Of a DNA stretch of 64,000 nt, positions 33,484 to 52,970 are shown one piece after another. This DNA comes from Archangium gephyra. GTDB lineage: Bacteria; Myxococcota; Myxococcia; Myxococcales; Myxococcaceae. Both the position numbers and the translations under genes were made by a program. The notes under the pieces are model-generated. The model was given only the letters and a program-made list of their open reading frames with translations. It was not told where the DNA came from and made no database searches. The DNA is taken from the NCBI RefSeq assembly GCF_001027285.1, contig NZ_CP011509.1, forward strand, positions 1,310,501-1,374,500. Reading direction: 5' to 3'. Numbering within the stretch: position 1 is the stretch's first letter; each line of letters starts with the position of its first letter.

Positions 33484-35166
33484 ATGGAACTCGAGCTGCT
33501 GCTGGCCCACGCCGATGATCACCGGCCCGTGCTGGAATCCGGCCTGCCCGATGACTCGCTGGGGCAGGCTCAAGCCTCGGCGCAGCGCTCGCAGACGCCC
33601 ACGCACCTGTCGGACCCGGGGGGAGATCCCAATGACCTGGCCGCCCAGCGCTGGGCCGTGATTGCTCCCGAGGGTCCCGCGGGTGACAGGCTGCTCGCCC
33701 TCGTCGCGCCGCTGCGCCAGTGGCGTGAGCAGCAGCAGGGGGCTCCCGCGCGCTGCTTCCGTGTCGCTCCGGGCCTGGGAGGCCCCGAGGCCGTGCGCTG
33801 GAAGAACACCGTGCTGCGTGACGAGTCCGTTCCCGAGCGTGAGTGGCCTCGCTACCTGCTCATCCTGGGAGACCTGGGGCAGGTGTCGCTGGAGTTCCAG
33901 CAGGGGCTGGGCAGCGATGTCTTCGTGGGTCGGCTCGCCTTCCGTGACGAGCGGGGCCTGGAAGCCTATGTCGACAAGGTGCTGCGCTGGGAGCGCGCGC
34001 CGTCCAAGGAGTCCCGGGCGCGCTCGCTCTTCTTCACCGCGCATGACGGCACCGCCGCCACCCGGGTGGGTTATCAGCAGCTCGTCCTCCCGGGCATTCA
34101 AGCGTGCCGCGCCCGCCAGCAGCGGGGTGAGCTCAACGCGGACATTCAGGAGGTGGGGAGCACCGAGGACTGGTCCGCCCAGCACCTGCTGGACCAGGTT
34201 GCCATGCCTCGTCCGGGCGTCCTGCTGTCGGTGAGCCACGGGCTGGGCGCGCCACGCAAGGGCTGGTCCTCGGTGAGCGAGCAGCAGGCCCTCCAGGGCG
34301 CCATGAGCCTGGGGCGCGAGCACCTGCGCGCCGAGGACGTGGCCTCGCGGCCCTTCCTGCCGGGAGGCTTCTGGGTGTACCTGGCCTGCTTCGGCGGCGG
34401 CACGCCCCAGTCGAGCCCGTACTTCCACTGGCTGCGACGGCTCCAGGACGCGGGCGCGCGGATGGGCAGTCCCGAGTCCGTGCTCGCTTCCCTGCCCAAG
34501 GCCGGAGAGCCTCCGTTCATCGCCGCGCTGCCGCAGGCCGCGCTGGCCAATCCGAATGGGCCGCTGGCCCTCATCGCCCACGTGGACCTGGCGTGGAGCT
34601 ATGGCTTCTCGGACGTGGACACCCAGACGCGCGGCCGTGCCTCGCGCTTCCTCGGCCTGCTGCGCGAGCTGGTGGAGGGACGCCGCGCTGGTGTGGGCCT
34701 GTCCGCGCTGCTGCGCTTCGCCTCCGAGGCCAATCTGGAGCTCACGCTGCTCGAGGACGGGGCGGAGTCGGACCGGGCCGCCGGGCGTGCCACGGAGCAG
34801 GACGGTGTGCGGCGCGGTCACCTGTGGATGATGCGCCAGGATGTGTCCGGCTACGTGCTGCTGGGAGATCCGGCCGTGCGTCTGCCATTGGCTCCGGCTG
34901 TGTCCCGTGCCGTCTCGCCTTCCATGTCCAATGCCGCGGCCCTGCTGGGCCTGCCCGTGGGGCTTCCCATGGCGGCCTCCGCTGGGCCCGGTGTGCAGGG
35001 AATGGAAGAGGCGGTGGTAGCGCTGATGACGGGAGCGGAGTCACCCAAGGCCATCGCCGCCCGCGTGGGTGTATCGCTTGCCGAGCTGCGCCACTGGGAG
35101 CGCACCTTCCGCGAGGCGGGCCGCGCCGCGCTGGCCTCGCTCTCTGGTTCCAAGGGCCAGGGCTAG
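33484..35166 (+). CDS. Caspase/gingipain-like (clan CD) putative peptidase with C-terminal HTH-like segment, copy A
   Basis: The 560-residue protein starts at ATG 33484 with AGGAGGG upstream. It has no signal peptide. RYLLILGDLGQVSLEFQQ resembles the C25 (gingipain) fold entry, and a His/Cys pair sits where clan CD peptidases have their dyad: VLLSVSHGLGAP (His252) and FWVYLACFGGGTP (Cys302). The last 50 residues (about 508-555) look like a transposase-type helix-turn-helix (SPKAIAARVGVSLAELRHWE). A paralogue of similar length is at 51300-52970. Proteolysis is inferred; a non-catalytic role is possible. It converges on the kelch/TPR/CHAT operon, and a REP-like hairpin separates the ends. Confidence 0.65.
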   Translation: MELELLLAHADDHRPVLESGLPDDSLGQAQASAQRSQTPTHLSDPGGDPNDLAAQRWAVIAPEGPAGDRLLALVAPLRQWREQQQGAPARCFRVAPGLGGPEAVRWKNTVLRDESVPEREWPRYLLILGDLGQVSLEFQQGLGSDVFVGRLAFRDERGLEAYVDKVLRWERAPSKESRARSLFFTAHDGTAATRVGYQQLVLPGIQACRARQQRGELNADIQEVGSTEDWSAQHLLDQVAMPRPGVLLSVSHGLGAPRKGWSSVSEQQALQGAMSLGREHLRAEDVASRPFLPGGFWVYLACFGGGTPQSSPYFHWLRRLQDAGARMGSPESVLASLPKAGEPPFIAALPQAALANPNGPLALIAHVDLAWSYGFSDVDTQTRGRASRFLGLLRELVEGRRAGVGLSALLRFASEANLELTLLEDGAESDRAAGRATEQDGVRRGHLWMMRQDVSGYVLLGDPAVRLPLAPAVSRAVSPSMSNAAALLGLPVGLPMAASAGPGVQGMEEAVVALMTGAESPKAIAARVGVSLAELRHWERTFREAGRAALASLSGSKGQG

Positions 35167-35179
35167 TGTTGCGCATGCA

Positions 35180-35200
35180 CCCTCTCCCTCTGGGAGAGGG
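35180..35200. repeat. REP-like palindromic element, copy 2, at a convergent gene junction
   Basis: CCCTCTCCC (35180-35188) pairs perfectly with GGGAGAGGG (35192-35200) around a 3-nt loop. It lies 13 bases after the stop of the plus-strand gene and 77 bases beyond the stop of the minus-strand kelch gene, and could end transcription from both. It is the same element as at 17300-17320. Confidence 0.65.
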
Positions 35201-35276
35201 CGGGGGGCGGGTCGTCGGAAGCTCGGGGGAATGCAGCGCGATACTCCCCCCAAGCTTCCGTCATGGCTCCGCTGCG

Positions 35277-38200
35277 TTACCGTGGGAGCGGCGAGGCCAG
35301 GTGGCTGGTGAGCGAAGGGCTGAGGGTCGTCCAGGTGTCGGTGACCGGGTCGTACACCTCGGCGGTCTCGAGGGGATTACCGCTGGCATCTTTTCCTCCC
35401 GAGACGAGCACCGCGCCGTTGCTCAGCAGCGTCGCCGTGTGTCCGCAGCGAGGCGAGCGCATGTCGCTGACCGCTGACCAGGTGCCCGTGCCCGTGCCCG
35501 GAGTGTACAGCTCGGCGGTCTTGAGAGGTGCATCGCCGCTACCGCATCCCCCCGTGACGAGGACCTTGCCGTTGCTCAGTAGCGTCGCCGTGTGATCGAG
35601 GCGAGGCGAGGCCATGGTGCCGGCCGATGACCAGGTGTCCGTGGCCGGGTTGTACACCTCGGCGGAGCCGATGGCCTCGGGGCTGGATGCCACCCGTTCA
35701 TCATTTTGTCCTCCCGAGACGAGCACCCTGCCGTCGCTCAGCAGCGTTGCCCTATGCCGATTTCGGCGCGCGGCCATGCTGCTGACAGCTGACCAGGTGC
35801 CGAGGACCGGGTCGAACACCTCGGCGGCGAGGAGATAGTAACGGGCGCTATCTCCAATCATGTGTCCCCATCCTCCCGCGACGAGCACCTTGCCATTGCT
35901 CAGCAGCGTCGCGGTGTGCATGCGGCGATGCCGGGTCATGTTGCCGGCCGAGGACCAGGTGCCAAGGACCGGGTCGTACACCTCGGAGTTGACGTAGGCA
36001 TGCATGCCGTGATCGCCATTGTATCCCCCCGCGACGAGCACCTTGCCGTTGCCCAGCCGCGTGGCCGTATGCCGGGCACGAGACGACGTCATGTCGCCGG
36101 CCGCTGACCAGGAGTTGGTGGCCGGGTCGTACACCTGGGCGGTATTGAGGACGGTACTGCCATTGTATCCCCCCGGGACGAGCACCTTGCCGTTGCTCAG
36201 GAGCGTGGCGGTGTGTTCGAGCTGAGGAGGCGAGGGCATGGTGCCGGCGGATGACCAGGTGTTGGTGACCGGGTCGTACGCTTCGGCGGTCGTGGGGGAA
36301 GGGCCATCGCCCTCTCCCGAGACGAGGACCTTGCCATTGCCCAGCAGCGTCGCGGTGTGCCCGGAGCGAGGTGAGGCCATGGCGCCGACCGAGGACCAGG
36401 TGTTGGTGCCCGGGTCGTACAGCTCGGCTGCCCGGGCAACAGCACTGGTGCCAAATGCCCCCGAGACGAGCACCTTGCCGTTGCCCAGCAGCGTCGCGGT
36501 GTGGTCGTCGTGAAGTGTAGCCATGGAGCCAGCGGATGACCAGGTGTTGGAGACCGGGTCGTACAGCTCGGCTGTGAGGGGATGACTGCTGCCGCTATAT
36601 CCCCCCGTGATGAGTACCCTGCCGTTGCCCAGCAGTGTCGCGGTGTGTCTGTAGCGAGGCGTGGCGATGGAGCCCGCTGGGGACCAGGTGTTGGAGACCG
36701 GATCGTACACCTCGGCGGTTTGGAGATAACCGCTGCTGCCACTTCGTCCCCCCGAGACGAGCACCTTGCCGTTGCCCAGCAGCGTCGCGGTGTGTCTTTC
36801 GCGAGGCGACGTCATGGAGCCAGCCGGGGACCAGGTGTTGGAGACCGGATCGTACAGCTCGGCTGTCTGGTGAAAGGTGTTGCCGGCACCTTCTCCCCCC
36901 GAGACGAGCACCTTGCCGTTGCCCAGCAGCGTTGCGGTGGCTTTGTGGCGGAGCGAGTCCATGGTGCCGGCAGAGGACCAGGTGTTGGTGCCCGGGTCGT
37001 ACAGCTCGGCGTAGATGCTCAATCCGCCCGCGATGAGCACCTTGCCATTGCCCAGCAGCGTCGCGGTGTGGCCTTCGCGATACGCCGTCATGGAGCCGAC
37101 CGAGGACCAGGTGTTGGAGACCGGGTCGTAAAGCTCGGCTGACTTGAGGCTGAGGATGTTTTCATCCACTCCGCCCGCGACGAGCACCTTGCCGTTGCCC
37201 AGCAGCGTCGCGGTGTGTCTGTCGCGAGACGAGGCCATGGAGCCGGCCGCTGACCAGGTGTTGGTGCCCGGGTCGTACAGCTCGGCTTCCTGGAGAACGA
37301 TGTTGCTGGTACTCGTTCCCCCCGAGACGAGCACCTTGCCGTTGCCCAGCAGTGTCGCGGTGTGTCTGGCTCGAGCAAAGGACATGGAACTCGCCCGGCT
37401 CCAGGCGCAGGGCGGGTTCTCGTCGATCTGCCCATCACAGTCATCATCCTGCGTGTTGAAACAGAGCTCGGCCACGGGCGTGACATCACCCGTACAAGTC
37501 CCCCAGGCCGTGCCGGAGGCATTGCACGTCCTGGTCCCCGCGCTGCACACGCCCACGCCTTGTGTACCGGTGGGACCGCCGTAGCAGCTCTCGCTGGCGC
37601 CCGGCACGCAGACGCAAACGCTCGTCTCGTTTTCCACCCCATCGCAGTCGTCATCACCGGGCGTGGTGCAGAGCTCCTCGGGCAGGGGCTTCACCTCGCC
37701 CGTGCAGGCTTCCCACTCCGTGCCGGAAGCGGCGCACATCCGGATGCCCGCGTGGCACAGGCCCACGTCCTGCGTGCCTGTCGGCCCGGTGTAGCAACTC
37801 CCCGTGGCACCCGGGAGGCAGAGACAAGCAGGAGCATCGTTGATATGCCCGTTGCAATCGTCGTCCGTCGCGTTGGCGCAGCTCTCCACCTGCGGCGTCA
37901 CCTCACCCGTGCAGGCGCCCCACCCCGTCCCCGAGGCGTTGCACTGCTGGGTGCCCGCATGGCACTGGCCCACGCCCTGAGTTCCCTCCGGTCCGCTGTA
38001 GCAACCCTGGCTGCTGTGGGGCACGCAGACGCAGACGGTGCCCTCGTTCTCCACCCCATCGCAGTCGTCATCACCGGGCGTGGTGCAGAGCTCCTCGGGC
38101 AGGGGCGTCACCTCGCCCGTGCAGGCCTCCCACTCCGTGCCGGAGTCATTGCACGTCCGCATGCTGGCGCGGCAGGCCCCCACTCCCTCCGTCCCGGCCG

Positions 38201-39881
38201 GTCCCCCGTACTCGCACTTCTCCTCTTGCCCCGGCCAGCACTGGCACGCCACCCCATCACAGTCCTCGTCCCCCGGTTTGGAGCAGTCCTCCTCCCGTGG
38301 CAGCACCTGCCCCTCGCACGCCCCCCATGCCGTCCCCCTCGCCACGCACTTCTGCACGCCCCCCGCGCACAGCCCCACTCCGTCACTGCCCTCCGGCCCC
38401 TCGTAGCACCGGCGCTCCTCCCCCTCCAGACACACGGGAGCACACGACTCGTTGACCTCTCCGTCGCAGTCGTCATCCAGTGCGTTGTCGCACCGCTCCC
38501 GCTGGGGCGTGACCTCTCCCTGGCACGTCTCGCTCCATTGCGTGCCCAGCGCGTCACAGTACTGCCGCGACGCCCGGCAGACCCCTCGGTCCAGCGTGCC
38601 CTTGGGTCCACCATGGGCGCAGTCCCGCTCCGCTCCAGGGGTGCACATGCGCACCGGCACTTGCAGCGTCTCCTGCCGCGGGGGTGCACCCTGCCCACTG
38701 CACGTGCCCGCGTTTTCGGACACCACCTTCGCGGGCTCTCCCCCGGCATCCACCTCCACCCTCCGGGCCCGCATCACCTCCAGCAGCACCTGCCCGTTCT
38801 CATCCGTCACGCCCCGGCTCATCCCCATGTACTCCACGCCTCGCGCCACCACCGCGCGGCCCGCCACCGGCTGGCCGTTCTCATCCTCTACCCGCACCTC
38901 GAGGCACGCCGTCTCCACCCACGGCGGATCCGGCGGCTGCAAGGGATTACCGGCATCCGCCAACTTCGAGCGCCACCAGTAGGGCAATGCCACGTTGAAC
39001 ACCGGCGAGGGGTTGTCCACCGTCACCTCCCACTCGTACGTGCCCGGCTTCTCTTCGGCCTCCACGATGCGGCCCATGTCTCCCGTTGGGCTCCACTGCC
39101 CGCTGTCCTGTTCCAACCGCCAGGCGGGCACCGTTTCGGGCAGGCGCTTCTCGGAGCCGACCGTGACGGAGCCGGGCACCTGTCCTCTCACGCTCTCGGA
39201 GCCGACCGTGACGGAGCCGGGCACCTGTCCTCTCACGCCGATCCGGCGGGCGAAGGGGATGACGTGTCCGTCCTGCTGGAAGATGACGACCACGACGCCC
39301 AGGCTCTCCAGGCCCACCGGCTCGACTCCGGGACGGGTGATTCCCTCCATCATTCCCGGCGCCGCCAGCAGCTCGCCACCTTCCAGATCCAGCGCGGCCA
39401 GGATGACTTCCACCTGTCCCTGGATGAGCCCGCCCGCCTCGTCGAACAGCGCATTCTCCGGAACGTCCAGCGAGACGCCTCCACTCGTCGTTTTGATGCC
39501 CTTGCTGGCATTGAAGGGGATGGGCTCGCCCAGGGGCAGCAGCTTGAGGCTGGCGCCAGCCTGGATGTTCTCCTCCAGCGTGAACGTCGCCAGGGAGGGA
39601 GCGAAAGCCGGCGCCCGTACATGCATCAGCTGCAAGCCCGGCTGGAGTTTCTCCAGCAGCAGTTGTCCGGACGCATCGGACCGCGCGCTCTGGCCGGAGG
39701 CCAGCTGAACGGAGGCCTCGGACACGGGCTCTCCCGTCACGGAGCGCAGCTCCAGGAATAGGCTCGGCACCGCCGGCCCGGTCACCTTCGGCTCCTCGAT
39801 GGGAGCGCGGCAGGCCACCAGACTCAGGGCCGCCAGCAGCGCCAGCCATCTGGGCGCGGAGGCTTCAAGAGAGATGCACAT
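35277..39881 (-). CDS. Kelch-repeat/MopE-like lipoprotein, copy 1
   Basis: The protein has 1534 residues, starting at ATG 39881 with AGGAG upstream. The signal peptide ends in a lipobox (LSLVAC). Residues about 32-100 form a carboxypeptidase-regulatory-like beta sandwich, then come a long beta-rich part and, at about 412-827, six MopE-like putative metal-binding units (Asp-Asp-Asp-Cys-Asp-Gly in Cys-rich linkers). The last 700 residues are 14 kelch-type repeats with HTATLLGNGKVLVSGG, which would fold as two or more propellers. It is predicted to sit on the cell surface or in the outer membrane. A 45-bp in-frame tandem duplication is present near residue 220. It is last in the five-gene operon and paralogous to the gene at 46241-49105. 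Confidence 0.85.
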   Translation of the reverse strand: MCISLEASAPRWLALLAALSLVACRAPIEEPKVTGPAVPSLFLELRSVTGEPVSEASVQLASGQSARSDASGQLLLEKLQPGLQLMHVRAPAFAPSLATFTLEENIQAGASLKLLPLGEPIPFNASKGIKTTSGGVSLDVPENALFDEAGGLIQGQVEVILAALDLEGGELLAAPGMMEGITRPGVEPVGLESLGVVVVIFQQDGHVIPFARRIGVRGQVPGSVTVGSESVRGQVPGSVTVGSEKRLPETVPAWRLEQDSGQWSPTGDMGRIVEAEEKPGTYEWEVTVDNPSPVFNVALPYWWRSKLADAGNPLQPPDPPWVETACLEVRVEDENGQPVAGRAVVARGVEYMGMSRGVTDENGQVLLEVMRARRVEVDAGGEPAKVVSENAGTCSGQGAPPRQETLQVPVRMCTPGAERDCAHGGPKGTLDRGVCRASRQYCDALGTQWSETCQGEVTPQRERCDNALDDDCDGEVNESCAPVCLEGEERRCYEGPEGSDGVGLCAGGVQKCVARGTAWGACEGQVLPREEDCSKPGDEDCDGVACQCWPGQEEKCEYGGPAGTEGVGACRASMRTCNDSGTEWEACTGEVTPLPEELCTTPGDDDCDGVENEGTVCVCVPHSSQGCYSGPEGTQGVGQCHAGTQQCNASGTGWGACTGEVTPQVESCANATDDDCNGHINDAPACLCLPGATGSCYTGPTGTQDVGLCHAGIRMCAASGTEWEACTGEVKPLPEELCTTPGDDDCDGVENETSVCVCVPGASESCYGGPTGTQGVGVCSAGTRTCNASGTAWGTCTGDVTPVAELCFNTQDDDCDGQIDENPPCAWSRASSMSFARARHTATLLGNGKVLVSGGTSTSNIVLQEAELYDPGTNTWSAAGSMASSRDRHTATLLGNGKVLVAGGVDENILSLKSAELYDPVSNTWSSVGSMTAYREGHTATLLGNGKVLIAGGLSIYAELYDPGTNTWSSAGTMDSLRHKATATLLGNGKVLVSGGEGAGNTFHQTAELYDPVSNTWSPAGSMTSPRERHTATLLGNGKVLVSGGRSGSSGYLQTAEVYDPVSNTWSPAGSIATPRYRHTATLLGNGRVLITGGYSGSSHPLTAELYDPVSNTWSSAGSMATLHDDHTATLLGNGKVLVSGAFGTSAVARAAELYDPGTNTWSSVGAMASPRSGHTATLLGNGKVLVSGEGDGPSPTTAEAYDPVTNTWSSAGTMPSPPQLEHTATLLSNGKVLVPGGYNGSTVLNTAQVYDPATNSWSAAGDMTSSRARHTATRLGNGKVLVAGGYNGDHGMHAYVNSEVYDPVLGTWSSAGNMTRHRRMHTATLLSNGKVLVAGGWGHMIGDSARYYLLAAEVFDPVLGTWSAVSSMAARRNRHRATLLSDGRVLVSGGQNDERVASSPEAIGSAEVYNPATDTWSSAGTMASPRLDHTATLLSNGKVLVTGGCGSGDAPLKTAELYTPGTGTGTWSAVSDMRSPRCGHTATLLSNGAVLVSGGKDASGNPLETAEVYDPVTDTWTTLSPSLTSHLASPLPR
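35290..37400 (-). repeat. Array of 14 kelch-coding repeats with near-identical DNA cores
   Basis: Within the kelch gene, units of about 140-185 bp repeat a core coding for HTATLLGNGKVLV and a second core coding for AELYDPVSNTWS. Many cores are identical at the DNA level, including wobble positions, while the loops between them differ. That pattern fits recent duplication or gene conversion within the array. This is a coding repeat, not CRISPR: spacing varies and the frame is kept throughout. Confidence 0.8.
39151..39240 (-). repeat. 45-bp tandem duplication inside the kelch lipoprotein gene
   Basis: The 45 bases starting at 39151 recur at 39196 almost unchanged. They encode RGQVPGSVTVGSE twice in a row. 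The length is a multiple of three, so the frame is kept. The matching region of the paralogue at 46241-49105 has a different Gly/Pro-rich linker and no duplication, indicating a recent local event. Confidence 0.85.
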
Positions 39882-39958
39882 CCGTTTTGCTCCTGCGATT
39901 CGAGAGGGGAGGTTGAGAGCAGGGTAGGCGGCCGTCGGGCCATCCGCTGTAAACCGCG

Positions 39959-42358
39959 TCACAGCTTGTCTCCGGCGCTGGCGCGCTGGGCCCGCAGCTG
40001 CCGCGTCCGCTCCAACTCCTGCTTCACCGACGCGATGTCCTCGGTTTGCTGCTCGTGCGTGTACACGTCCAGCGCCTGCTGCCAGGCTTCTTCGGACCTG
40101 GACAGCAGCTCCGCCCCCGCGGGCCCCTCCGTCCGGCTCCCCAGCTCGCGCAACACCTCGCCGAGATTGCACTGCACCAGGGCCCAGTACTGGGGTTGCT
40201 GCTCGCGGGTGTACACCTCCAGGGCGCGCCGGTACGCCTCCTCCGCTTCCTTCAGCGGCTTGCGGCCCTCCTCACCCGAGGCCTGCCGGCCCTGCTCCCA
40301 CAGCGCCGCCCCCAGGCTGTTGTGCACCAGCGCCCATTCCTGGGGCAGGTCGTCGCGGGTGTACACCTCCAGGGCCCGCCGCAAGGCCTCCACCGCCTGC
40401 GTGGTCAGCCGCTGCCGCTGCTCCCCACCCAGGCGCTCGCCCCGCGTCAACCACACCTCCGCCAGCCGTCGCTGCACCGCCGCCCAATCCCGCGGCAGGT
40501 ACTCGCGGGTGTACACCTCCAGGGCGCGCCGGTACGCCGCCTCCGACTCCTCCAGGAAGCCGCTCGCCTCCGCGTCCTCCGCTCCGCTGCCCAGCGTCCA
40601 GAGCACGTCTCCCAGGTTGCTCTGCGCCAGCGCCCAGTCCCGCGGCAGCTCCTCCCGGGAGAACACCCGCAGCGCCCGGCGGTGCGCCTCCGCCGCGTCC
40701 TCCAGCAGCCGCCGGCCTTCCTTCTCCTCCGCGCCCTCGGCCCACACCGTCAGCGCGTTGCCCAGAGCCGATTGCGCCCGGGCCCACGGTTGGGGTTGTG
40801 CTTCGCGCGTGTACACCTCCAGGGCCGCCCGGTAGGCCTCCACCGCCGCTCGCAGCAGCCGTTTCCCCCGCTGGGGGTCCGCGCGCTCCCACTGCCGCAG
40901 CAGGGTGCTTCCCAGGTTGACCTGGGTGTCCGCCCATTCCTGGGGAAAGCGCTGGCGGGTGCGCACCTCCAGGGCCCGCCCGAAGGACTCCACCGACTCC
41001 TTCAGCAGCGCGTCCCCCTTCTTCCCCTCGGCGCGCCGGCCCTGCTCCCCCAGGGTCACGCCCAGGGCGTCCTGCACCCGGGCCCACTGCTGGGGCCGCT
41101 CCTTGCGCGTGTACACCTCCAGGGCCCGCCGGTACGCCCCCTCCGCCTCCTCCAGGCGCCGTCCCGCCGTGGCTCCCCGCTGGCGCGTGCCCTGCGCCAG
41201 CAGCACGGTCCCCAGGTTGAACTGGATCTCGGCCCATTGCGGCGGCTGCTGCTCGCGGGTGATGACCTCGAGTGCCCGCCGGTGCGCCTCTCCTGCCTGC
41301 TTCAACAGGGATTCACCCTCCTCGCCGGACACCCGCTCGCCGCGCTCGCGCAGCACGGTGCCGAGCTGGCTTTGCGCATGGGCCCATGACACCGGCCAGC
41401 GCTCCTGTCCCAATTCGTCCAGCACCCGGCGGCAGGCCGACTCCGCCGCCCGCAGATGTTCCTGCATCGCCGCGCCCCGCTCGCGCCGCCCCAGCTCCCG
41501 GTGCGCCCGCGCCCGGTTCACCTGCAGCCGGGCCCACGACTCCGGATCCTCCTCCACCGACACGTAGCGCAGGGCCCGCTCATAGGCCTCCAGTGCCTGG
41601 ATGAAGGCATAGCCATTGAAGTGCGCGTCTCCACGCAGCGTCAGATCCCTCGCCGCCTCCGCCTGGAGCCGATGCCGCTCCTGCTCCAGCTTCTCGAGTT
41701 GCTCGAGCTTCTGCTCGGCCGAGGTCCCGGCATGCTCCGCCGCCGCCGCGAAGTCGCCTCGCGCGAAGGCGGCCAGGGCCAGCTTGCGCTCATCGCCGCG
41801 CGTGCGCTCCACCTCCGACACCCACCGGTCCACCTCCTGCTTCACCTGCTGCGCGCCCAGCCCGTAGCGCCGCGCCCACTCGGAGACGTAGCGTCCCAGG
41901 TCCACATCCTGGGGCCGGCCGCTCGAGGTCACCTGCTCCTTGGCGCGCTCGGAGGCCTCGCGCAGCAGGCTCTCGATTCCCTCGTCCGAGAGGAAGCGCA
42001 GGGAGCCGGCCGGCAGCAGCTTCACCTCCATCACCTGCCGCTGCAAGTCATTGGGCACCTGGGCGCGGCCTTCGAGGGGAGCCCAGAGGCGATAGCCCTT
42101 GAGCGTCACCTGGAGGGTGAGGGAGTCACCGGGCAGCAGGGCCTCGGGGAGGAAGAGGCGGAAGACGCCGTCGGAGCCGGTGCGTACGGGGTTGCCAAAG
42201 CCTTGCAACACCACCTGGGCGCCGACGGCCGGTTGTGTCTCGTCATGGCCACCCAACTTCAGGATTTGCCCTCGGAGATGGCGGGGCTCGGCGCTGGCGG
42301 CGGTGGAGGACAGCAGGGCCAGGACACACAACGTGGCGAGCCTCGGGGTTCTACACAT
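39959..42358 (-). CDS. Secreted TPR-repeat protein with N-terminal carboxypeptidase-regulatory-like domain, copy 1
   Basis: The protein has 799 residues, starting at ATG 42358 (AAGGAGG 7 bases upstream). A signal peptide (LCVLALLSSTAASAEP) is followed by a domain with GAQVVLQGFGNPVRTGSDGVFRLFLP, a regulatory-like beta sandwich. From about residue 230, around 11 TPR-like units of 50 residues repeat the pattern RALEVYTREQQPQYWALVQ...NLG. The corresponding DNA shows GTGTACACCTCCAGGGC (complement) at exact 150-bp steps (40209, 40359, 40509, 40809, 41109). This repeat type is often found together with CHAT proteases in bacteria, supporting a role as partner of the CHAT protein encoded 18 bases upstream in the operon. 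It should act in the periplasm. Confidence 0.85.
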   Translation of the reverse strand: MCRTPRLATLCVLALLSSTAASAEPRHLRGQILKLGGHDETQPAVGAQVVLQGFGNPVRTGSDGVFRLFLPEALLPGDSLTLQVTLKGYRLWAPLEGRAQVPNDLQRQVMEVKLLPAGSLRFLSDEGIESLLREASERAKEQVTSSGRPQDVDLGRYVSEWARRYGLGAQQVKQEVDRWVSEVERTRGDERKLALAAFARGDFAAAAEHAGTSAEQKLEQLEKLEQERHRLQAEAARDLTLRGDAHFNGYAFIQALEAYERALRYVSVEEDPESWARLQVNRARAHRELGRRERGAAMQEHLRAAESACRRVLDELGQERWPVSWAHAQSQLGTVLRERGERVSGEEGESLLKQAGEAHRRALEVITREQQPPQWAEIQFNLGTVLLAQGTRQRGATAGRRLEEAEGAYRRALEVYTRKERPQQWARVQDALGVTLGEQGRRAEGKKGDALLKESVESFGRALEVRTRQRFPQEWADTQVNLGSTLLRQWERADPQRGKRLLRAAVEAYRAALEVYTREAQPQPWARAQSALGNALTVWAEGAEEKEGRRLLEDAAEAHRRALRVFSREELPRDWALAQSNLGDVLWTLGSGAEDAEASGFLEESEAAYRRALEVYTREYLPRDWAAVQRRLAEVWLTRGERLGGEQRQRLTTQAVEALRRALEVYTRDDLPQEWALVHNSLGAALWEQGRQASGEEGRKPLKEAEEAYRRALEVYTREQQPQYWALVQCNLGEVLRELGSRTEGPAGAELLSRSEEAWQQALDVYTHEQQTEDIASVKQELERTRQLRAQRASAGDKL

Positions 42359-42376
42359 GGACGTCCTCCTTCGTTT

Positions 42377-43837
42377 TTACTGCGCGCGCTCCAGCGTGAA
42401 GCCGAGCCCGGTGTTGCCAAGGTTCGCGCTGCCCTCGTAGGGGACGTAGCCCGCCTTCTCCACGCGGAAGCGCACCTCCGCCTCGTGCTCGGCGCGCAGT
42501 TCCAGGTGGAAGCTCCCCTGGGCGTCAGTCCGCGTCTCCACGGACCCGCCGGGCTGGGACTGCAGGAGTGTCACCCGCGCGTCGGCCACGGGCTGCCCGT
42601 CCTCGTCATACACCTGGCCGCCGAGGGGCTGCGACTTGGGGAGCGCGTTCACGACCCCGACGGCGAGGACGCCAGCCGCCGTCGCGCCGAGCCCCAACAA
42701 CACCGTGCGGCGCCACAGCCGGGCGGCGGGCCGGGGCGGCTCGGTGGGGGAGAAGAGCTGGAGCGAGGCCCACTCCAGGCCCCCGGCCCGCATCAGCGCA
42801 CGCCGGGCCTCCAGCAGCGCGGGGCGCACCGAGCCGGGGCCCTTCCAGGCACCATAGAAGGACTCAGCCAGGCGCACCGAGCCCTCCACGGACAAGGGCA
42901 GGCGCGAGGCCACCACGGCCTCCAGGCCCACGCGGTGCAGTCCCTGCGCCACGCTGCCGAGCGCGTTGCCGGGCGTGCCCGCATGGCCTCCGTAGCAGGC
43001 GCACAGCACCACCAGCCGCAGCGAGCCCGCGTAGGGCGCCAGCACGCGCCGCAGTGCCGCGGTGTCCACCACCTCCGGCTCGCCGCCTGCACCGTCCCAC
43101 ACGAGTCCGGAAGTGCCGCCGGCCGTCTGCGTGCCGTGGCACAGCAGGTGGAGCGCGGTGAGGGGACGGCCCGCCGCGGTGGCCTCGCGCAGGGCCTGCT
43201 CCAGCGAGGCGAGCGACAGCCGGGCCACCACGTCCTTCTCCGGCTCGAAGCCGTAGCGGTTGCCGCTGGCCGCGCCCGCCAGGGCCTCGCGGTGCTCCTT
43301 CCAGGGCACATCACCCCCGGCGGCGGACCAGCCGAGCAGCACCCGTCCCGGGCCCGGAGGCCGCGAGGGCAGGGGCGCGGGGTGCACGCCCGGCCACTCG
43401 TACTGCACCAGGCACCCGGAGAGCTCTCCCAGGTGCTGCCCGGTGGTGCGCAGCGTCACCAGCTCCCACGGGAGGCTGTAGAGCTCGGCGGCGCCGAAGC
43501 GGAAGGTGAGGTACACCGGGCGGCCCGCCTCCACCGCTTGCAGCAGGGCCTGCTCGTGGTGCGCCCAGCCCTCGTGCGTGCTCAACCCCTGCTCGAGGAA
43601 GGTGCGCAGCTGCTCGCCCAGCCGCTGCATGGCCGCGGAGTCCGGCCGGGGGCGCAGCAGCTGCGCCATCGCTCCCAGCACCTGCTCGTCCCAGGGGAAC
43701 TCCGCGCTGCCGAAGCCCTTCGCGCTGCGGAAGACGTAGTCCTGGCGCATGCAGCGGAAGGCGTGCGGATCTCCCGCTCCCTCGGCCCGGGCGATCTCGA
43801 TGGTCAGCGTATACGGTGTCGTCTCTTCGGGTTTCAT
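42377..43837 (-). CDS. Membrane-anchored CHAT-domain (caspase-like) protease
   Basis: The protein has 486 residues, starting at ATG 43837, only 2 bases after the stop of the upstream TPR gene. The CHAT domain occupies about residues 1-365: YSLPWELV, then TALHLLCHGTQ (His234) and LVVLCACYGGHAG (Cys281), the catalytic dyad pattern of CHAT/separase-like cysteine proteases. A single TM segment follows at about 379-399, preceded by basic RLWRR, so the protease should be cytoplasmic. The C-terminal 85 residues (LGGQVYDEDGQPVADARVTL) form a carboxypeptidase-regulatory-like domain that would lie in the periplasm and resembles the N-terminal domain of both TPR proteins. It is the central gene of the operon and the only predicted enzyme in it. 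Confidence 0.87.
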   Translation of the reverse strand: MKPEETTPYTLTIEIARAEGAGDPHAFRCMRQDYVFRSAKGFGSAEFPWDEQVLGAMAQLLRPRPDSAAMQRLGEQLRTFLEQGLSTHEGWAHHEQALLQAVEAGRPVYLTFRFGAAELYSLPWELVTLRTTGQHLGELSGCLVQYEWPGVHPAPLPSRPPGPGRVLLGWSAAGGDVPWKEHREALAGAASGNRYGFEPEKDVVARLSLASLEQALREATAAGRPLTALHLLCHGTQTAGGTSGLVWDGAGGEPEVVDTAALRRVLAPYAGSLRLVVLCACYGGHAGTPGNALGSVAQGLHRVGLEAVVASRLPLSVEGSVRLAESFYGAWKGPGSVRPALLEARRALMRAGGLEWASLQLFSPTEPPRPAARLWRRTVLLGLGATAAGVLAVGVVNALPKSQPLGGQVYDEDGQPVADARVTLLQSQPGGSVETRTDAQGSFHLELRAEHEAEVRFRVEKAGYVPYEGSANLGNTGLGFTLERAQ

Positions 43838-46227: not shown

Positions 46228-46240
46228 GGGATTCACGGAC

Positions 46241-49105
46241 TCAGGGGGTGGCGAGCCGGGCGGCGGGAAGCGGGTTGTACACCTCGGCCGAGTCCAGGGT
46301 GCTGCCGCTGCCCGGGTTGCTTCCTCCGATGACGAGCACCTCGCCGGTGTGCAGCAACACCATGGCGTGCCCGGTGCGCACTGCGTTCAGGGTGGGGGCG
46401 GACGTCCAGGTCTTGCCGACCGGTTCATACTCCTCGGCGGTGGCGGTGGCGGTGCTCCCTGTATCCCCTCCCGTGATGAGCACGTGGCCATTGCCCAGCA
46501 GCACCGCGCCCAGCTCATCACGTTTCGTGGTCAGGGCGCCCGCCGCCATCCAGCCCTTGAGCGGGTCATACACCTCGGCGGGGAGGACGTGATCACTCCC
46601 GTCGCCAGCCCCACCCATGACGAGCACATGGCCGGTGCTCAGCCCTATCGCCGAGTGCGAGGTGCGCGCCTCGTTCATGGAGGAGACCGGGGTCCATGTG
46701 TCGTGGACCGGGTCGTACACATCGGTCAGCTTGAGGCGCGTGGATGAGGAGTCATGCCCACCCGTGACGAGCACCCTGCCGTCATTCAGCAGCGTCGCCG
46801 AGTGCGAGGTCCGCTCCTTGCTCATGGCGCTCGAGGTGACGGTCCATGTATCGAGGCCCGGGTCATAGACCTCGGCGGTGGCGAGTTTTCCGCTCGGGCC
46901 GTTGCCTCCCGTGACGAGCACCTTGCCGTTGCTCAACCGTGTCACCGTATGGAAGTTGCGGCCCGAGTTCATCTCCTTGACGCGCGTCCAGGTCTGGGTG
47001 AGCGGGTCGTACAGCTCGGCGGTATTGGCCAGGCTGGTGCCGTTCCAACCCCCCACGGCGAGGACCCGGCCATCGTTCAGCAGCACGGCGCCCAGGTGCA
47101 TGCGTTTCGAGCTCATGTCGCCCACGGTGCGCCAGGTCGCGGAGACGGGGTCATACACCTCGGCCGTCTCGAGGGGTTGGCCACTCGAGTTGGAGCCGCC
47201 CATGACGAGGACGTGGCCATTGCGCAGCACGACCGCCGCGTGATGGGAGCGAGCCGTGCCCATGCTGGCCGTCGTCACCCACTCACAGGGCTCTTCATTG
47301 CGCAGCCCATCACAGTCCTCATCCAGCGCGCTGGTGCAGCTCTCGGTCCGCGGAGTGACTTCGCCGGTGCAGGAACCCCAGCCCGAGCCGGTGTCATCGC
47401 ACGTCTGGGTTGCCGCGTGGCAGATGCCCACGTTCTCCGTCCCCGCTGGCCCGGAGTAGGCGCACCGCCGGGTCTCTCCCGGCAGGCACAGGCCCACCAG
47501 CCCATCGCAGTCCTCGTCCTCCGGCCACGAGTAGTCCTCGTGCGCGGGCAGCACCCGTCCTTCACAGTCCGACCAGGCCGTGCCCCCCGCCACGCACGTC
47601 TCCGTGCCCGCCAGGCACAGGCCCACGCCGTGGATGTCCTCGAGCCCGTCGCAGGTCCGCGTCTCGCCCGGCTGGCACAGGCGCTCACACGACTCGTTGA
47701 CGGTGCCGTCGCAGTCGTCGTCCTCGGCGGTGTCGCAGCGCTCCTTCTGGGGGCCGACCTCGCCCGCGCAGACGCTCCACGCCGAGCCTCGTGCGTCACA
47801 GGTCCGCCGCGCGGCCTGGCAGATTCCCTGCGTGGGGCCGCTGTGGGCACAGTCCTGCGCGGCGCCCGGCGTGCACAGCGGTGCCGCCACCGTCAGGGTG
47901 ACGGTCTGGGGCGGCGCTCCCTTGCCCGAGCAGGTTCCCGCGTCTTTGTCCGTGGATACCCGCATCGCCTGCTCGCCGGCATCCACGTCGACGTGCTGGT
48001 CCTTCATCACCTCCAGCCGCACCCGCCCGTCGGCGTCCGTCATCGCACGGGTCAGGCCCGTGTACCCCACGCCCTGGGCCACCACCATGCGGCCCGCGAC
48101 CGGTTGGCCCTTCTCATCCTCGACCTTCACCTCCAGACAGACCGTTCCCACCCACCGCGGCTCGGGAGGCTGCAAGGGATTGTCGGGGTACGCCTCCGGT
48201 GAGCGCCACCAGAAGGGCAGGGCCACGTTGAACAGGGCGGGCGCGTTGTTCAGCGTGGCCTCCCACCTGGAGCCCGTGACCAGCGCCACATCACCCGTGG
48301 GAACCCAGCGTCCGCTCTCCGCCTCCAACCGCCAGATGGGAGCGGGGGGATGGGTGCTCGGGGACGACAGCGCGCTGCGCCGCGTGCCGGGCCGTCCGAC
48401 TGGACTTCCCGCCGAGCCAGGGCGTCCCGGGACGTTGCCTCCGATGTGTGTTCCGCGGGCGAAGGGGATGACCTGGCCCTTCTGCAGGAAGACGAGCGAC
48501 ACCATGCCGAGGCTCTCCAGGCCCACCGGCTCGGCGCCAGGGCCCGGTATGCCCTCCAGCACTCCGGGGGCCGCCAGCAGCTCGCCGTTGTCCAGGTCCA
48601 GCACGGACAGGTAGGCCTCCACCGCTCCCTGGATGGGATTGCCCTGGGCGTCGCGCAGCGCTCCCGCGGGAACGGTGAGCTGCACGCCTCCCACGTCCCG
48701 CTTGGTCCCCTCGCTGGCATCGAAGGTGGTGGGCGTTCCCAGGGGGAGGAGTTGGAGACGGGCGCCCGCCCGGATGTCCTGGGCCATGTCGAAGGCCAGC
48801 ACCGTCTGGGAGAAGCCCTCGGCCCGCACCTGCAGCAGCTGGCGCCCCACGGCCAGGTTGTCGAGGAGCACCGTCCCCTGAGCGGTGACCTGCTGCTCCT
48901 CGCCCGAGGAGAGACGGACGGAGGCCTTGGACACGGTCTCTCCATTCAGGGACGCCAGCTCCAGGTAGAGGCTGGGGCCGGACGGCGCGTGCTCCTCGGG
49001 CGGCGTCTTGCACGCCACCAGACCGAGCAACAGCAGCAGGGCCGCCCACCTGGGCGCGTGGGAATGCCCGGCCAGGCCAAGGCCGTCAATCAAAGACATG
49101 TGCAT
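46241..49105 (-). CDS. Kelch-repeat/MopE-like lipoprotein, copy 2
   Basis: The protein has 954 residues; ATG 49105 is used (AGGAG 12 bases upstream), with ATG 49099 as alternative. The lipobox is LLGLVAC. Domain order matches copy 1: a regulatory-like domain (YLELASLNGETVSKASVRL), a beta-rich middle with NVALPFWWRSPEAY, three MopE-like units (Asp-Asp-Asp-Cys-Asp-Gly) at about residues 408-606, then seven kelch repeats. It is shorter than copy 1 because it has half as many repeats of each kind, and the repeats are more diverged. It is first in the five-gene operon, 190 bases from the divergent lipoxygenase gene. Confidence 0.85.
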   Translation of the reverse strand: MHMSLIDGLGLAGHSHAPRWAALLLLLGLVACKTPPEEHAPSGPSLYLELASLNGETVSKASVRLSSGEEQQVTAQGTVLLDNLAVGRQLLQVRAEGFSQTVLAFDMAQDIRAGARLQLLPLGTPTTFDASEGTKRDVGGVQLTVPAGALRDAQGNPIQGAVEAYLSVLDLDNGELLAAPGVLEGIPGPGAEPVGLESLGMVSLVFLQKGQVIPFARGTHIGGNVPGRPGSAGSPVGRPGTRRSALSSPSTHPPAPIWRLEAESGRWVPTGDVALVTGSRWEATLNNAPALFNVALPFWWRSPEAYPDNPLQPPEPRWVGTVCLEVKVEDEKGQPVAGRMVVAQGVGYTGLTRAMTDADGRVRLEVMKDQHVDVDAGEQAMRVSTDKDAGTCSGKGAPPQTVTLTVAAPLCTPGAAQDCAHSGPTQGICQAARRTCDARGSAWSVCAGEVGPQKERCDTAEDDDCDGTVNESCERLCQPGETRTCDGLEDIHGVGLCLAGTETCVAGGTAWSDCEGRVLPAHEDYSWPEDEDCDGLVGLCLPGETRRCAYSGPAGTENVGICHAATQTCDDTGSGWGSCTGEVTPRTESCTSALDEDCDGLRNEEPCEWVTTASMGTARSHHAAVVLRNGHVLVMGGSNSSGQPLETAEVYDPVSATWRTVGDMSSKRMHLGAVLLNDGRVLAVGGWNGTSLANTAELYDPLTQTWTRVKEMNSGRNFHTVTRLSNGKVLVTGGNGPSGKLATAEVYDPGLDTWTVTSSAMSKERTSHSATLLNDGRVLVTGGHDSSSTRLKLTDVYDPVHDTWTPVSSMNEARTSHSAIGLSTGHVLVMGGAGDGSDHVLPAEVYDPLKGWMAAGALTTKRDELGAVLLGNGHVLITGGDTGSTATATAEEYEPVGKTWTSAPTLNAVRTGHAMVLLHTGEVLVIGGSNPGSGSTLDSAEVYNPLPAARLATP

Positions 49106-49295
49106 GGGAATGGACTGCTCCTGAAGAAACTCTTGGGACCACAAAAGAAGCGGGTCTCTCGCGAGCGCCCGGAAATCACCCGACAGGGTTTTACAATGTT
49201 TTCCCAGAGCAGCGGGGCGGCCGTCCTGGCGGGCGTGCGTCGGCAGGCCCGTCCTGCGCTCCGGTTCCGGTCATTCGCGAGGAGGAGCTGGTAGC
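49106..49295. promoter_or_regulatory. Divergent promoter region between the kelch/TPR/CHAT operon and the lipoxygenase gene
   Basis: This 190-bp gap is relatively AT-rich for this genome (TTTTACAATGTTTTCCC around 49189). TACAAT at 49192-49197 is a possible -10 box toward the lipoxygenase. The only space upstream of the operon's first gene is here, so its promoter must also be here. No clear operator dyad was found. Confidence 0.4.
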
Positions 49296-51281
49296 GTGTG
49301 TCCCGCCATGCCCAATCCCGCCCAGAATGCCCCGCCCGTTTCCGCCGAGGAGACTCCGGCGGACCCGAAGCAGCTGTACCGGTACGACTACAAGAAGCTC
49401 GCGCCGCTCGCGATGATCGCCACGCTGCCGAAGGCGGAGAAGCCGGGCATCCAGTGGACCATGCAGTGCGTGCAGCTGGCGCTCCAGGCCGTGCGCAACC
49501 GCCTGCATTGGGATGACTCGCTCTCGTATTCCGACGACGACACGGCGGCGGTGGACCTCAACCACGTGGGCCTCGGTGTCGTGAACCTCGACGCGATGCC
49601 GTTGCACCGGGTGGCGCCGTACGAGACCTCCGAGCTGGCCCCGGCCCACCTCGAGCAGATGACGCCGGAGCAGCTCGAGGCGGCGCTCCCCCCGGAAGAA
49701 GAAGGTCCGCTGTCCTTCAGCGGCGATACGTCCGCCGAGCCGGGAATGCTCTCCCTGCTCAGGACGGTCGCGGTCGTCTCCCGGGACTTCCTCCAGAAGG
49801 GCGTCACCCATCCGCTCTTCATCCTCGAGGCCCTGCTCAAGAAGGTGGAGGCGAAGCGCTCCGGGCGTCCCACGTCCGTGGATGACTACGCGCGCCTGTT
49901 CACCACGCTCGAGCGGCCCTGGTTCGCCGACAAGTTCGAGTCCGACGAGGTCTTCGCCTACCTGCGCGTGGCGGGCTTCAACCCGCTGGTGCTCCAGCAG
50001 GTGAAGACGCCGGGGGAGAAGTTCCCGGTCACCGACGAGCAGTTCCGCGTCACCCTGCGCGACCCTCAGGACTCGCTGGCGCTGGCGGGCTCCGAGGGCC
50101 GGCTCTTCCTGTGCGACTACGTGGCCCTGGCGGGCGTGAAGAATGGCAACTTCCCCGCGGGCCCCAAGTACTGCTTCGCCCCGCTCGCGCTGTTCGCGCT
50201 CCCGCGGGGCGGTTCGGGCGCGCGGCGGCTCCATCCGGTGGCCATCCAGTGCGGGCAGGATCCGCGCAACCATCAGATCTTCACGCCCGCGGATGGCGAG
50301 GCCTGGAAGAAGGCGAAGCTCGTGGTCACCGTGGCCGACTTCAACCACCACGAGCTCATCTCCCACCTGGGCCTCACGCACCTGCTGATCGGCCCGCTGG
50401 CCATCGCCACGCACCGGTGCATTCCGGATGCGCACCCGGTGAGCGTGCTGCTGCGGCCGCACTTCGAGGGCACGCTCAACATCAACGACATGGCGCAGGC
50501 CACGCTGGTGGCGCCCGGGCACGAGGTGGACAAGTCGCTCGGCGGCACCATCTGGGCGAGCCGCAAGGTCGCCGCCGAGGGCCTGCTCTCCCGGCCCTTC
50601 AACTCGCTCTTCCTGCCCGAGGACCTCTCGGCGCGCGGGGTGGACAGTCCGGCGCTCGAGTACCCCTACCGGGATGACGCGCTGGGGCTCTGGCACGCCA
50701 TCGAGGAGTGGGTGACCACCTACGTCAAGCTGTACTACCGCTCGGACGAGGAGGTGCGGGCGGACAGGGCCCTCCAGGAGTGGGCGGCGGAGCTCGTCTC
50801 GCAGGACGGCGCGCGCATCCCCGGCTTCGGTGACGCGGGGGACGGGCGCATCCAGAGCCTCGCGTACCTGTGCCGGGCGCTCACGCTGATCATCTTCACC
50901 GCGAGCGCGCAGCATGCGGCCGTCAACGCGCCGCAGGCGGGGCTGATGAACTACGCGCCCGCCACGCCGCCCGCGGCGTACCGCGCGGCCCCGCTGTCCG
51001 TGAGCGACTCCGACAACAACGACTATCTCGACTACTTCCCGCCGCTCGAGCTGGCCACGTTGCAGATGGAGTTCCTGCACCTGCTGGGCGGCGTGGTCCA
51101 CACGCGGCTCGGCCGGTATGAGCGGGACTGGTTCAAGGACGCGAAGGTGCGCGAGCCGCTCGCGCGCTTCCAGTCGAAGCTCGAGGAGCTCGAGGCGCTC
51201 ATCTCCGAGCGCAACCGGACCCGTTTCGGGCCCTATCCCTTCCTCCTGCCGAGCCGGGTTCCCCAGAGCATCAACATCTGA
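49296..51281 (+). CDS. Lipoxygenase
   Basis: The protein has 661 residues. GTG 49296 is chosen because AGGAGGAG ends 8 bases before it; ATG 49308 would lack such spacing. All expected iron ligands are visible: His352 and His357 in NHHELISHLGLTHL, His540 and Asn544 in AQHAAVN, and the C-terminal Ile661 in QSINI. Lipoxygenases insert oxygen into polyunsaturated fatty acids to give hydroperoxides; bacterial ones lack the plant PLAT domain, and none is obvious here. No signal peptide is seen. The gene sits between the CHAT operon and a caspase-like gene, 18 bases before the end of the latter, which is convergent. A link to protease signalling is only positional. Confidence 0.9.
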   Translation: MCPAMPNPAQNAPPVSAEETPADPKQLYRYDYKKLAPLAMIATLPKAEKPGIQWTMQCVQLALQAVRNRLHWDDSLSYSDDDTAAVDLNHVGLGVVNLDAMPLHRVAPYETSELAPAHLEQMTPEQLEAALPPEEEGPLSFSGDTSAEPGMLSLLRTVAVVSRDFLQKGVTHPLFILEALLKKVEAKRSGRPTSVDDYARLFTTLERPWFADKFESDEVFAYLRVAGFNPLVLQQVKTPGEKFPVTDEQFRVTLRDPQDSLALAGSEGRLFLCDYVALAGVKNGNFPAGPKYCFAPLALFALPRGGSGARRLHPVAIQCGQDPRNHQIFTPADGEAWKKAKLVVTVADFNHHELISHLGLTHLLIGPLAIATHRCIPDAHPVSVLLRPHFEGTLNINDMAQATLVAPGHEVDKSLGGTIWASRKVAAEGLLSRPFNSLFLPEDLSARGVDSPALEYPYRDDALGLWHAIEEWVTTYVKLYYRSDEEVRADRALQEWAAELVSQDGARIPGFGDAGDGRIQSLAYLCRALTLIIFTASAQHAAVNAPQAGLMNYAPATPPAAYRAAPLSVSDSDNNDYLDYFPPLELATLQMEFLHLLGGVVHTRLGRYERDWFKDAKVREPLARFQSKLEELEALISERNRTRFGPYPFLLPSRVPQSINI

Positions 51282-51299
51282 GCCAGGCATGCGTCGCCC

Positions 51300-52970
51300 T
51301 CACTCGGGGATGCCGAGGGCGGCGCGGCCCGCCTTGCAGTAGAGGGTGGCGAGGCGCTCGAGCTCGCGCCGGTCGATGCCGTACTCGGTGGCGAGCTCCT
51401 TGAGGCTCCGATCGCCGGTCATGACATGGCCGATGGCCTCTTCCAGCTTGTCCGCCGGGATGGGGAGCGGGGCGGAGGCCACGGGCGTGGGCGTCACGGC
51501 CACGGAGGGTGGGGGAGGCGCCGGGGGCTGGTCCTGCTTCGGGCGTTTCCACTCGACGGGGAGGCGGACCGCGGGGTCTCCGAGCAGCACGTACCCGGCG
51601 ATGTCCTGCCGCATCATCCACAGGTAGCCCCGGCGGATGAGCTCCTCGCGGCCGGGCGTGGCGCGCGTGCGGACCTCCTCGTCGTGGATGCTGGCCAGCT
51701 CGGTGTCGGTGAGCGCGAGGTAGCGGTACAGCTCGCGGAAGCCGATGCCGACGCGGTCCGACTTCAGCATCGTCTTGAGCGTGTTGATGAAGCGGCCCGG
51801 GCGCTTCTTCGCGGGGGAGTCGTCCTCGCGGAAGCTGAAGGTCCACGCGAGGTCCACGTGGCCGATGAAGGCCAGCGGGCCGTTCGGGTTGGCGAGCGCC
51901 CTCTGCGGCGTGGCGGCGATGAAGGGCTTGCCCGAGAGCGTCTTCATCACGTCGGGCAGGCGGGAGTAGCGCCCCGTCTCGGCGAGCTTCTCGAGCCAGT
52001 GGCTGTACGCGCTCGTGTCGGGCGTGCCCGCGCCGAAGCAGGCGAACATGAACCAGAGGCCGTTGGGCATGAAGGTGCGCGAGGCCAGCTCGGACGCGGC
52101 GAGCTGTCCCTGGCGGCCGAAGCTCATCGCGCCCTGGCCCGCGAGCCGCTCCTGCTCCGACGTCCAGCCGCCCTTGGGCGCGCCGATGCCGTGGCTCATG
52201 CTGAAGAGCACGCCCGGGGCGGTGTTCGCGGTGCTCGCCAGGAACTGGTCCAGGCCCGGGTCCAGCTCCCGGCCATGGATGTCGCAGCCGCTGGCGGGGA
52301 AGAGCCCCTTGTCCAGCTCCCCTCGCACCAGCTCGAGGCCGGGGGTGATGAGGGCCTTGAAGCCCGCGTCGAGCGCGCCCGAGCCGTCATGGGCCGTGTG
52401 CATGAGCAACCGGCCGGGAGCCGTGCGGGGCAGCTTCTCCGCGCGCAGGACTTTCTCCACGTACGCCTCGTACCCCCGCTCATCGGAGAAGTGGAGGCGG
52501 CCCACGTAGCCGTCCGAGGCCTGCATCTGCTGGATGGCGAGCGGCACCTGATCGAGATCGCCGAGGATGAGCTGGTAGCGCGGCAGGTCCGTGTTCGTGT
52601 TGCCGCCCGCGTCGAAGTGCGTTTTGCGCCACTGCGCGGCCTCGGCCATGGACATGGGCCGGGAGGGGACGCGGTACTCCCGGATGGGGTGCCCGCCCTG
52701 CTGCTCGCGCCGGAGGGCGATCAGCGGTTGGATGAGGTCGCGCAGGCGGTCCCCGGCGGGGCCCTCCGGGAGGATGAGGCCCCAGCGCTGGTCCTCGAGG
52801 TCGTTCGGGTCTCTGGCCTCTTCCCAGAAGGGGACGGGCTCATGCTCGCCGGCGTCCGTCCGCTCCTGCTCTCCGGCGGCCGAGTCCTCCGGCAGCCCTT
52901 CGCCCAGGACGGGGGTGTTCGTGTCCGCGTGAACCAACAGCAATTCGAGGTCGCCGCTGTGCTTGGGCAT
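51300..52970 (-). CDS. Caspase/gingipain-like (clan CD) putative peptidase with C-terminal HTH-like segment, copy B
   Basis: This is a protein of about 556 residues; ATG 52970 aligns with the start of copy A, while ATG 52985 would add five residues. It is colinear with copy A at 33484-35166: LELLLVHAD, WGLILPEGPAGDRL, RYQLILGDLDQVPLAIQQ, the dyad VLFSMSHGIGAP (His260) and LWFMFACFGAGTP (Cys311), FIAATPQRALANPNGPLAFIGHVDLAW and RRGYLWMMRQDIAGYVLLGDP, with no stretch over 20 conserved without change. A Pro-rich linker (about 470-500) leads to the HTH-like tail SLKELATEYGIDRRELERLA. The two copies bracket the kelch/TPR/CHAT operon and lipoxygenase. The role is unknown; the dyad suggests regulated proteolysis. 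Confidence 0.65.
   Translation of the reverse strand: MPKHSGDLELLLVHADTNTPVLGEGLPEDSAAGEQERTDAGEHEPVPFWEEARDPNDLEDQRWGLILPEGPAGDRLRDLIQPLIALRREQQGGHPIREYRVPSRPMSMAEAAQWRKTHFDAGGNTNTDLPRYQLILGDLDQVPLAIQQMQASDGYVGRLHFSDERGYEAYVEKVLRAEKLPRTAPGRLLMHTAHDGSGALDAGFKALITPGLELVRGELDKGLFPASGCDIHGRELDPGLDQFLASTANTAPGVLFSMSHGIGAPKGGWTSEQERLAGQGAMSFGRQGQLAASELASRTFMPNGLWFMFACFGAGTPDTSAYSHWLEKLAETGRYSRLPDVMKTLSGKPFIAATPQRALANPNGPLAFIGHVDLAWTFSFREDDSPAKKRPGRFINTLKTMLKSDRVGIGFRELYRYLALTDTELASIHDEEVRTRATPGREELIRRGYLWMMRQDIAGYVLLGDPAVRLPVEWKRPKQDQPPAPPPPSVAVTPTPVASAPLPIPADKLEEAIGHVMTGDRSLKELATEYGIDRRELERLATLYCKAGRAALGIPE

Follow-up and report, generated by a model that had tools for sequence, protein, structure and literature searches.

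The window analysed here, a 64,000-nucleotide stretch of the Archangium gephyra genome (positions 1,310,501-1,374,500 of the single 12.49 Mb contig NZ_CP011509.1), contains a block of eight genes in which a membrane-anchored protease with a CHAT domain (TM-CHAT) is accompanied by two TPR proteins, two kelch lipoproteins, a lipoxygenase and two proteases resembling peptidase family C25 (C25-like). A survey of myxobacterial genomes supports the pair of CHAT and C25-like proteases, not the symmetric block, as the conserved unit. We tentatively interpret the block as the form that a two-protease signalling module of myxobacteria has taken in one lineage to monitor the envelope, in which sensing would drive a cascade from CHAT to the C25-like proteases. 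We rate this interpretation as somewhat short of an even chance.

CHAT and C25-like proteases form a recurring pair

117 genomes of the order were searched. A CHAT of the block's subfamily was found in 25/117 genomes and the C25-like family in 31/117; family-level counts were made on 96 genomes. To avoid bias, loci for the analysis of pairing were picked from GTDB contigs by the C25-like profile alone, which gave 50 loci for which 18 kb or more of sequence was available; the genome-contig search used two conserved peptides and under-samples distant C25-like proteins. 34/50 loci have a CHAT within ~10 kb compared with ~3.5% expected by chance, a null value taken from the CHAT density of one genome, A. 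gephyra itself (22 places exceed the cut-off across 12.49 Mb). The other neighbours were nSTAND (23 loci), WD40 (21) and extracytoplasmic function (ECF) sigma factors (10), as called by a simple script based on G+C content at the third codon position (GC3) that missed or wrongly framed some neighbours. A calcineurin-like metallophosphatase also often neighbours the C25-like gene (10/50 loci: L018 at 8354-9769, L049, L050, L051, L061, L089, L091 and others).

Within A. gephyra all five C25-like genes lie within ~9 kb of a CHAT. In the block itself CHAT is within 10 kb of the C25-like genes, and the catalytic dyads are intact in both. The two proteases are fused in locus L049 (5598-9263), where a protein of 1222 aa has lost the C25-like dyad and a separate C25-like gene is present. 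An identical CHAT match occurs at both ends of the A. gephyra contig (positions 5,911-6,978 and 12,475,913-12,476,980), which is probably assembly end redundancy of a circular chromosome.

The first-pass annotation of the window, which was made from the sequence alone, had proposed the symmetric arrangement as a module and a neighbourhood search as the way to check it. The search upheld the co-occurrence of CHAT with C25-like genes, which is systematic and includes the L049 fusion, but not the conservation of the symmetric arrangement. The symmetric block was rejected as a conserved unit: close TM-CHAT homologues are present in 3/96 family genomes, close TPR homologues in 2/96, and the full arrangement in one genome. 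The symmetry is thus an elaboration, seen in a single genome, of a pair that is itself widespread.

The two kinds of protease in the block

TM-CHAT (42377-43837, minus strand, 486 aa) matches the Pfam CHAT domain PF12770 with 57.1 bits, the cut-off being 24. Its dyad, H234/C281, is invariant in 43/43 homologues. In the AlphaFold2 model (pLDDT 81) the two residues occupy the clan-CD positions, each after one of two successive strands (228-232 and 275-279). The best matches of the model among solved structures include the TPR-CHAT protease Csx29 of Craspase (Z 23.5), SAVED-CHAT (8tl0, Z 21.4), separase and the myxobacterial anti-sigma factor DdvA (Z 17). A sequence search of the Protein Data Bank (PDB) with CHAT returned nothing relevant. 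The PADLOC SAVED_CHAT profile gave 114 bits with a match confined to 3-266 of 498 (the first half), and CHAT was the only one of the eight proteins with a strong PADLOC match. Profile searches identified no Cas domains among the eight block proteins, and profile searches of the window genes identified no STAND NTPase or WD40 in the block.

The earlier description of the CHAT protein as membrane-anchored was borne out by a single hydrophobic segment, residues 377-400. Because this helix is preceded by arginines and followed by a CarboxypepD_reg domain, the protease is predicted to lie in the cytosol and its tail in the periplasm.

The end proteins of the block are C25a (33484-35166, plus strand, 560 aa) and C25b (51300-52985, minus strand, 561 aa). 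Against Pfam Peptidase_C25, which has a cut-off of 23, C25a scored 29.2 bits and C25b 14.0 bits, below the cut-off. The AlphaFold2 model of C25b (pLDDT 89.7) matches gingipain R (RgpB) with a Z of 25.9 over 304 residues, and the next non-gingipain match has a Z of 16.4. A PDB search with the C25-like profile returned a weak gingipain match only. The C25b dyad, H265/C316, sits in clan-CD positions after successive strands of the model and is kept in 61/63 members of the C25-like family; the dyad of C25a is also conserved. The arrangement of His and Cys as a clan-CD dyad, which the first-pass annotation had made a check of its proposal, was thus found for both CHAT and the C25-like proteins. The end proteins, which it called "caspase-like", have a predicted clan-CD fold and the dyad, but the gingipain match (Z ~25) is far above those to caspases (Z ~9). 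As modelled, they resemble the gingipains of peptidase family C25 most and cannot strictly be called caspases.

No hydrophobic segment or N-terminal secretion signal was seen in C25a or C25b, and both proteins are predicted to be cytosolic. Gingipains, in contrast, are secreted proteins with a propeptide, and the two proteins are therefore named C25-like and not gingipains. The helix-turn-helix (HTH)-like tail previously assigned to the end proteins is supported by sub-threshold HTH hits in Pfam and by a three-helix tail at 511-552, which is confidently predicted in the C25b model and present in 34/63 family members.

Receptor settings of the pair

The significance of the pairing is that a recurring clan-CD pair in myxobacteria appears to plug into different receptors, namely NLR-like (nucleotide-binding leucine-rich repeat-like) STAND-WD40 proteins, the ECF sigma/DdvA anti-sigma system and envelope proteins. 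In one setting CHAT occurs with nSTAND-WD40, either fused or adjacent (for example L009, L018, L020 and L043). In another, C25-like and CHAT genes are found with an ECF sigma gene, a ~1000-aa zf-HC2/CHAT protein and a ~230-aa protein (L030, L032, L033, L035, L044, L046, L047, L055, L056 and others, although not all genes were called everywhere). The ~1000-aa protein is homologous to the transmembrane anti-sigma factor DdvA and matches its solved structure 8rot with an E value of 5e-173. DdvA-like proteins have one transmembrane helix, and the His and Cys of their CHAT-like part are conserved in 18/18. Such a set of neighbours suggests that proteases feed into the DdvS/DdvA pathway, the signal for which has been reported as unknown (PMC4374960), and it offers a possible candidate protease for the inactivation of DdvA.

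The third setting is the present block, where TM-CHAT is accompanied by the TPR and kelch proteins and the lipoxygenase. Neither an ECF sigma gene nor a DdvA homologue was found among the window genes in or beside it. TM-CHAT forms a single clade (support 100/99). Its sister group consists of CHATs that stand alone, among them at least three from the ECF sigma/DdvA setting (L046, L056 and L155), though the long stem at the join between TM-CHAT and this sister calls for caution. In most relatives the receptor would be a cytosolic nSTAND-WD40 part. To judge from the predicted domains, a transmembrane helix and a periplasmic domain on CHAT take its place in the block, and secreted TPR and kelch proteins are encoded in the same apparent operon.

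Organization of the block and its other proteins

A check of the reading frames, start positions and domains confirmed all eight genes with the domains first assigned to them, and all eight frames are intact with strong GC3 bias. Kelch1 (35277-39881, minus strand) is a predicted lipoprotein (lipobox LVAC) with CarboxypepD_reg, MopE-type cysteine repeats and ~12 kelch repeats, and kelch2 (46241-49105, minus strand, 954 aa) is its paralogue, likewise a kelch/MopE lipoprotein; both are expected either on the cell surface or in the periplasm. The kelch1 units form a 147-bp tandem array in the DNA (window 36015-37366, 9.4 copies, 72% matches), which might give rise to variation in repeat number. 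TPR1 (39959-42358, minus strand, 799 aa) has TPR repeats and an N-terminal region that is carboxypeptidase-regulatory-like by inspection. Its paralogue TPR2 (43840-46227, minus strand, 795 aa) is also predicted to be secreted. The lipobox on kelch and the signal peptide on TPR were read from the sequences.

The lipoxygenase (49296-51281, plus strand, 661 aa) scored 177.9 bits against PF00305, for which the cut-off is 23.6. Inspection found a His-rich iron motif and a C-terminal Ile; no signal peptide or hydrophobic segment was seen. Its closest relatives (77-78%), in loci L018 and L019 of another genus, adjoin tandem C25a and C25b genes and a metallophosphatase, with CHAT-nSTAND-WD40 also present in L018. 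C25a, C25b and lipoxygenase are therefore grouped together outside the present block. As a general partner of the pair the lipoxygenase was rejected: 43/117 genomes have lipoxygenases, the loci of five among the more similar ones contain neither C25-like nor CHAT genes, and such neighbours were found for the 77-78% relatives only.

The five central genes, kelch2-TPR2-CHAT-TPR1-kelch1, all share the minus strand and are separated by only 2 to ~80 nt, the TPR2 stop codon lying 2 nt upstream of the CHAT start. They form one apparent operon with a mirrored gene order. C25a is convergent with the end of this operon, the lipoxygenase gene is divergent from its start, and C25b is convergent with the lipoxygenase gene. 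The three paralogous pairs described in the first-pass annotation are real, with identities of 44% (C25a/C25b), 68% (TPR1/TPR2) and 54% (kelch1/kelch2, over the N-terminal part, as repeat numbers differ). The symmetry it described is a matter of mirrored gene order but not of inverted duplication, which was ruled out by the common strand of the five central genes and the unequal divergence of the pairs. As these five genes lie on one strand in mirrored order, the arrangement was not made by any single duplication. Loci with more than one C25-like gene are frequent (L087, L089, L094, L096, L105, L140, L150 and L151), so the paralogous C25-like pair is not special to the block.

Distribution and history of the block

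The closest relative by this locus is Archangium violaceum Cb vi76 (CHAT 96-97% and C25b 90-91% identity). The gene order there is C25b-lipoxygenase-CHAT-C25a, and all four genes are intact. In the DNA alignment ~140 nt of TPR2 are joined to 265 nt of kelch2 at the gap; both genes were therefore once present and then deleted. TPR1 and kelch1 are likewise missing, with repeat-like DNA instead. Given these deletions, TPR and kelch are not supported as obligate parts.

In Corallococcus llansteffanensis (G116 contig C1133; L015:7302-20000 and L069:1-14110) C25a, TM-CHAT (81%) and a kelch lipoprotein lie at one end of a same-strand operon that encodes a contractile particle resembling a phage tail. 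The TPR gene (65%) is at the opposite end, ~19 kb away, with an ECF sigma gene upstream of it. The tail sheath domains have E values of 2e-5, just under the Pfam cut-off. In another genome (G090; L029, L079) a tail operon of this kind has a second, different CHAT/C25/DdvA-like module next to it. A tail-like particle was rejected as a general partner, as sheath is found in 20/117 genomes and beside C25/CHAT in only these two. The A. gephyra genome itself contains a decayed extra copy of kelch/TPR/CHAT at 9.786-9.791 Mb (L071, G000:C1:9,777,001-9,797,000). The expected recurrence of CHAT with TPR and kelch was thus observed in part, in C. llansteffanensis, where TPR is distant, and in this decayed copy.

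Proposed mechanism and alternatives

The envelope-sensing interpretation starts from observations, namely the gene content, operon-like spacing, topology signals, predicted folds, conserved dyads and the CHAT/C25-like pairing. The signal would be a ligand or envelope insult bound by kelch and TPR. The TPR proteins would then act on the periplasmic domain of CHAT, which would cluster in the membrane and become active in the cytosol. The cascade would run from CHAT to C25a and C25b, which would be activated by cleavage and in turn cut cytosolic targets. The lipoxygenase might contribute membrane-lipid oxidation or an oxylipin signal. This amounts to a testable proposal for a bacterial protease cascade driven from outside the cell. 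A more specific outcome can be imagined by analogy with death-receptor and ferroptosis pathways, with kelch and TPR switching a membrane receptor-protease and the C25-like proteases and lipid oxidation leading to a regulated lytic or alarm-signalling death. We consider this improbable.

Several results weigh against the envelope-sensing interpretation. Both C25-like genes and the lipoxygenase gene are transcription units separate from the CHAT operon. Close TPR homologues are as rare as given above (2/96), and no close TPR gene was found elsewhere in the Cb vi76 genome. Because Cb vi76 keeps CHAT and both C25-like genes without TPR and kelch, the putative sensors are dispensable or another input operates there.

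The strongest rival is a transcriptional switch in which CHAT and C25-like proteases would cut an anti-sigma factor and free an ECF sigma, the cognate pair being encoded elsewhere in the genome. We regard it as rather less than likely. It has precedent: Csx29 cleaves Csx30, and an ECF sigma is released through anti-sigma cleavage (PMC10028731), and CalpL also acts on an anti-sigma factor (PMC11417357). Many relatives have an ECF sigma and a DdvA homologue beside C25-like and CHAT, the single helix and the fully conserved His and Cys of the DdvA-like proteins fit such a role, and in C. llansteffanensis an ECF sigma gene is found upstream of TPR. However, neither gene was found among the window genes at or next to the block, ECF genes are missing from the surroundings of most CHAT/nSTAND/C25 loci, and a lipoxygenase makes a better effector than regulator.

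Cb vi76, which retains just C25a, C25b, lipoxygenase and CHAT, is the best argument that these four are the functional unit and that kelch and TPR are unrelated surface-protein cargo duplicated around CHAT. Kelch/MopE lipoproteins of the same type also occur elsewhere, away from these CHAT genes. Set against this are the tight spacing of the five-gene operon, the recurrence of kelch and TPR near TM-CHAT in C. llansteffanensis and, as a decayed set, elsewhere in the A. gephyra genome, and the CarboxypepD_reg domain common to TM-CHAT and kelch. On balance the cargo explanation seems unlikely. A last explanation is that local duplication left the block behind as a transient or decaying side product that serves no particular function. 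The full arrangement in one genome and the degenerate copy at G000:9.786 Mb would agree with this, but eight intact reading frames with strong GC3 bias, conserved catalytic residues and the intact CHAT (96% identical) and C25b (90-91%) of Cb vi76 make it very improbable.

Comparison with known systems

The individual protein families and the CHAT-STAND-WD40 conflict systems are known already. Open-access papers on the latter, including PMC7159879 and PMC8195603, name no C25, kelch or lipoxygenase partners, and no description of the CHAT and C25-like pairing was found in the open-access papers covered by the search. The NLR-like conflict proteins of multicellular bacteria, which combine a CHAT or caspase effector with an nSTAND NTPase and WD40 (Kaur et al. 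2020/2021, PMC7159879, PMC8195603), use the same CHAT family, and relatives in the same bacterial family carry exactly that type beside the same C25-like gene. The block differs in having a transmembrane helix, a periplasmic domain and secreted or lipid-anchored proteins instead of the NTPase and WD40.

Craspase (Csx29, type III-E CRISPR) provides the best structural match to CHAT and is also a CHAT protease under partner control, whereas in the block the TPR repeats are on separate secreted proteins, CHAT is membrane-anchored and there is no CRISPR effector. SAVED-CHAT (type III-B CRISPR, CBASS-like) shares the CHAT fold, but TM-CHAT has CarboxypepD_reg after the transmembrane helix instead of a SAVED domain, and therefore no known cyclic-nucleotide sensor. 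The Myxococcus DdvS-DdvA system (ECF sigma and transmembrane anti-sigma) is similar in that DdvA, too, is a transmembrane protein containing CHAT, and DdvA homologues often adjoin C25-like and CHAT genes in relatives. The block, however, has no sigma or anti-sigma gene, and the CHAT-like part follows the transmembrane helix in DdvA and precedes it in TM-CHAT. Gingipains share the fold and dyad of C25b. In contrast to them, C25b has ~12% identity, no secretion signal and an HTH-like C-terminal tail, and it belongs to a predicted intracellular module with CHAT.

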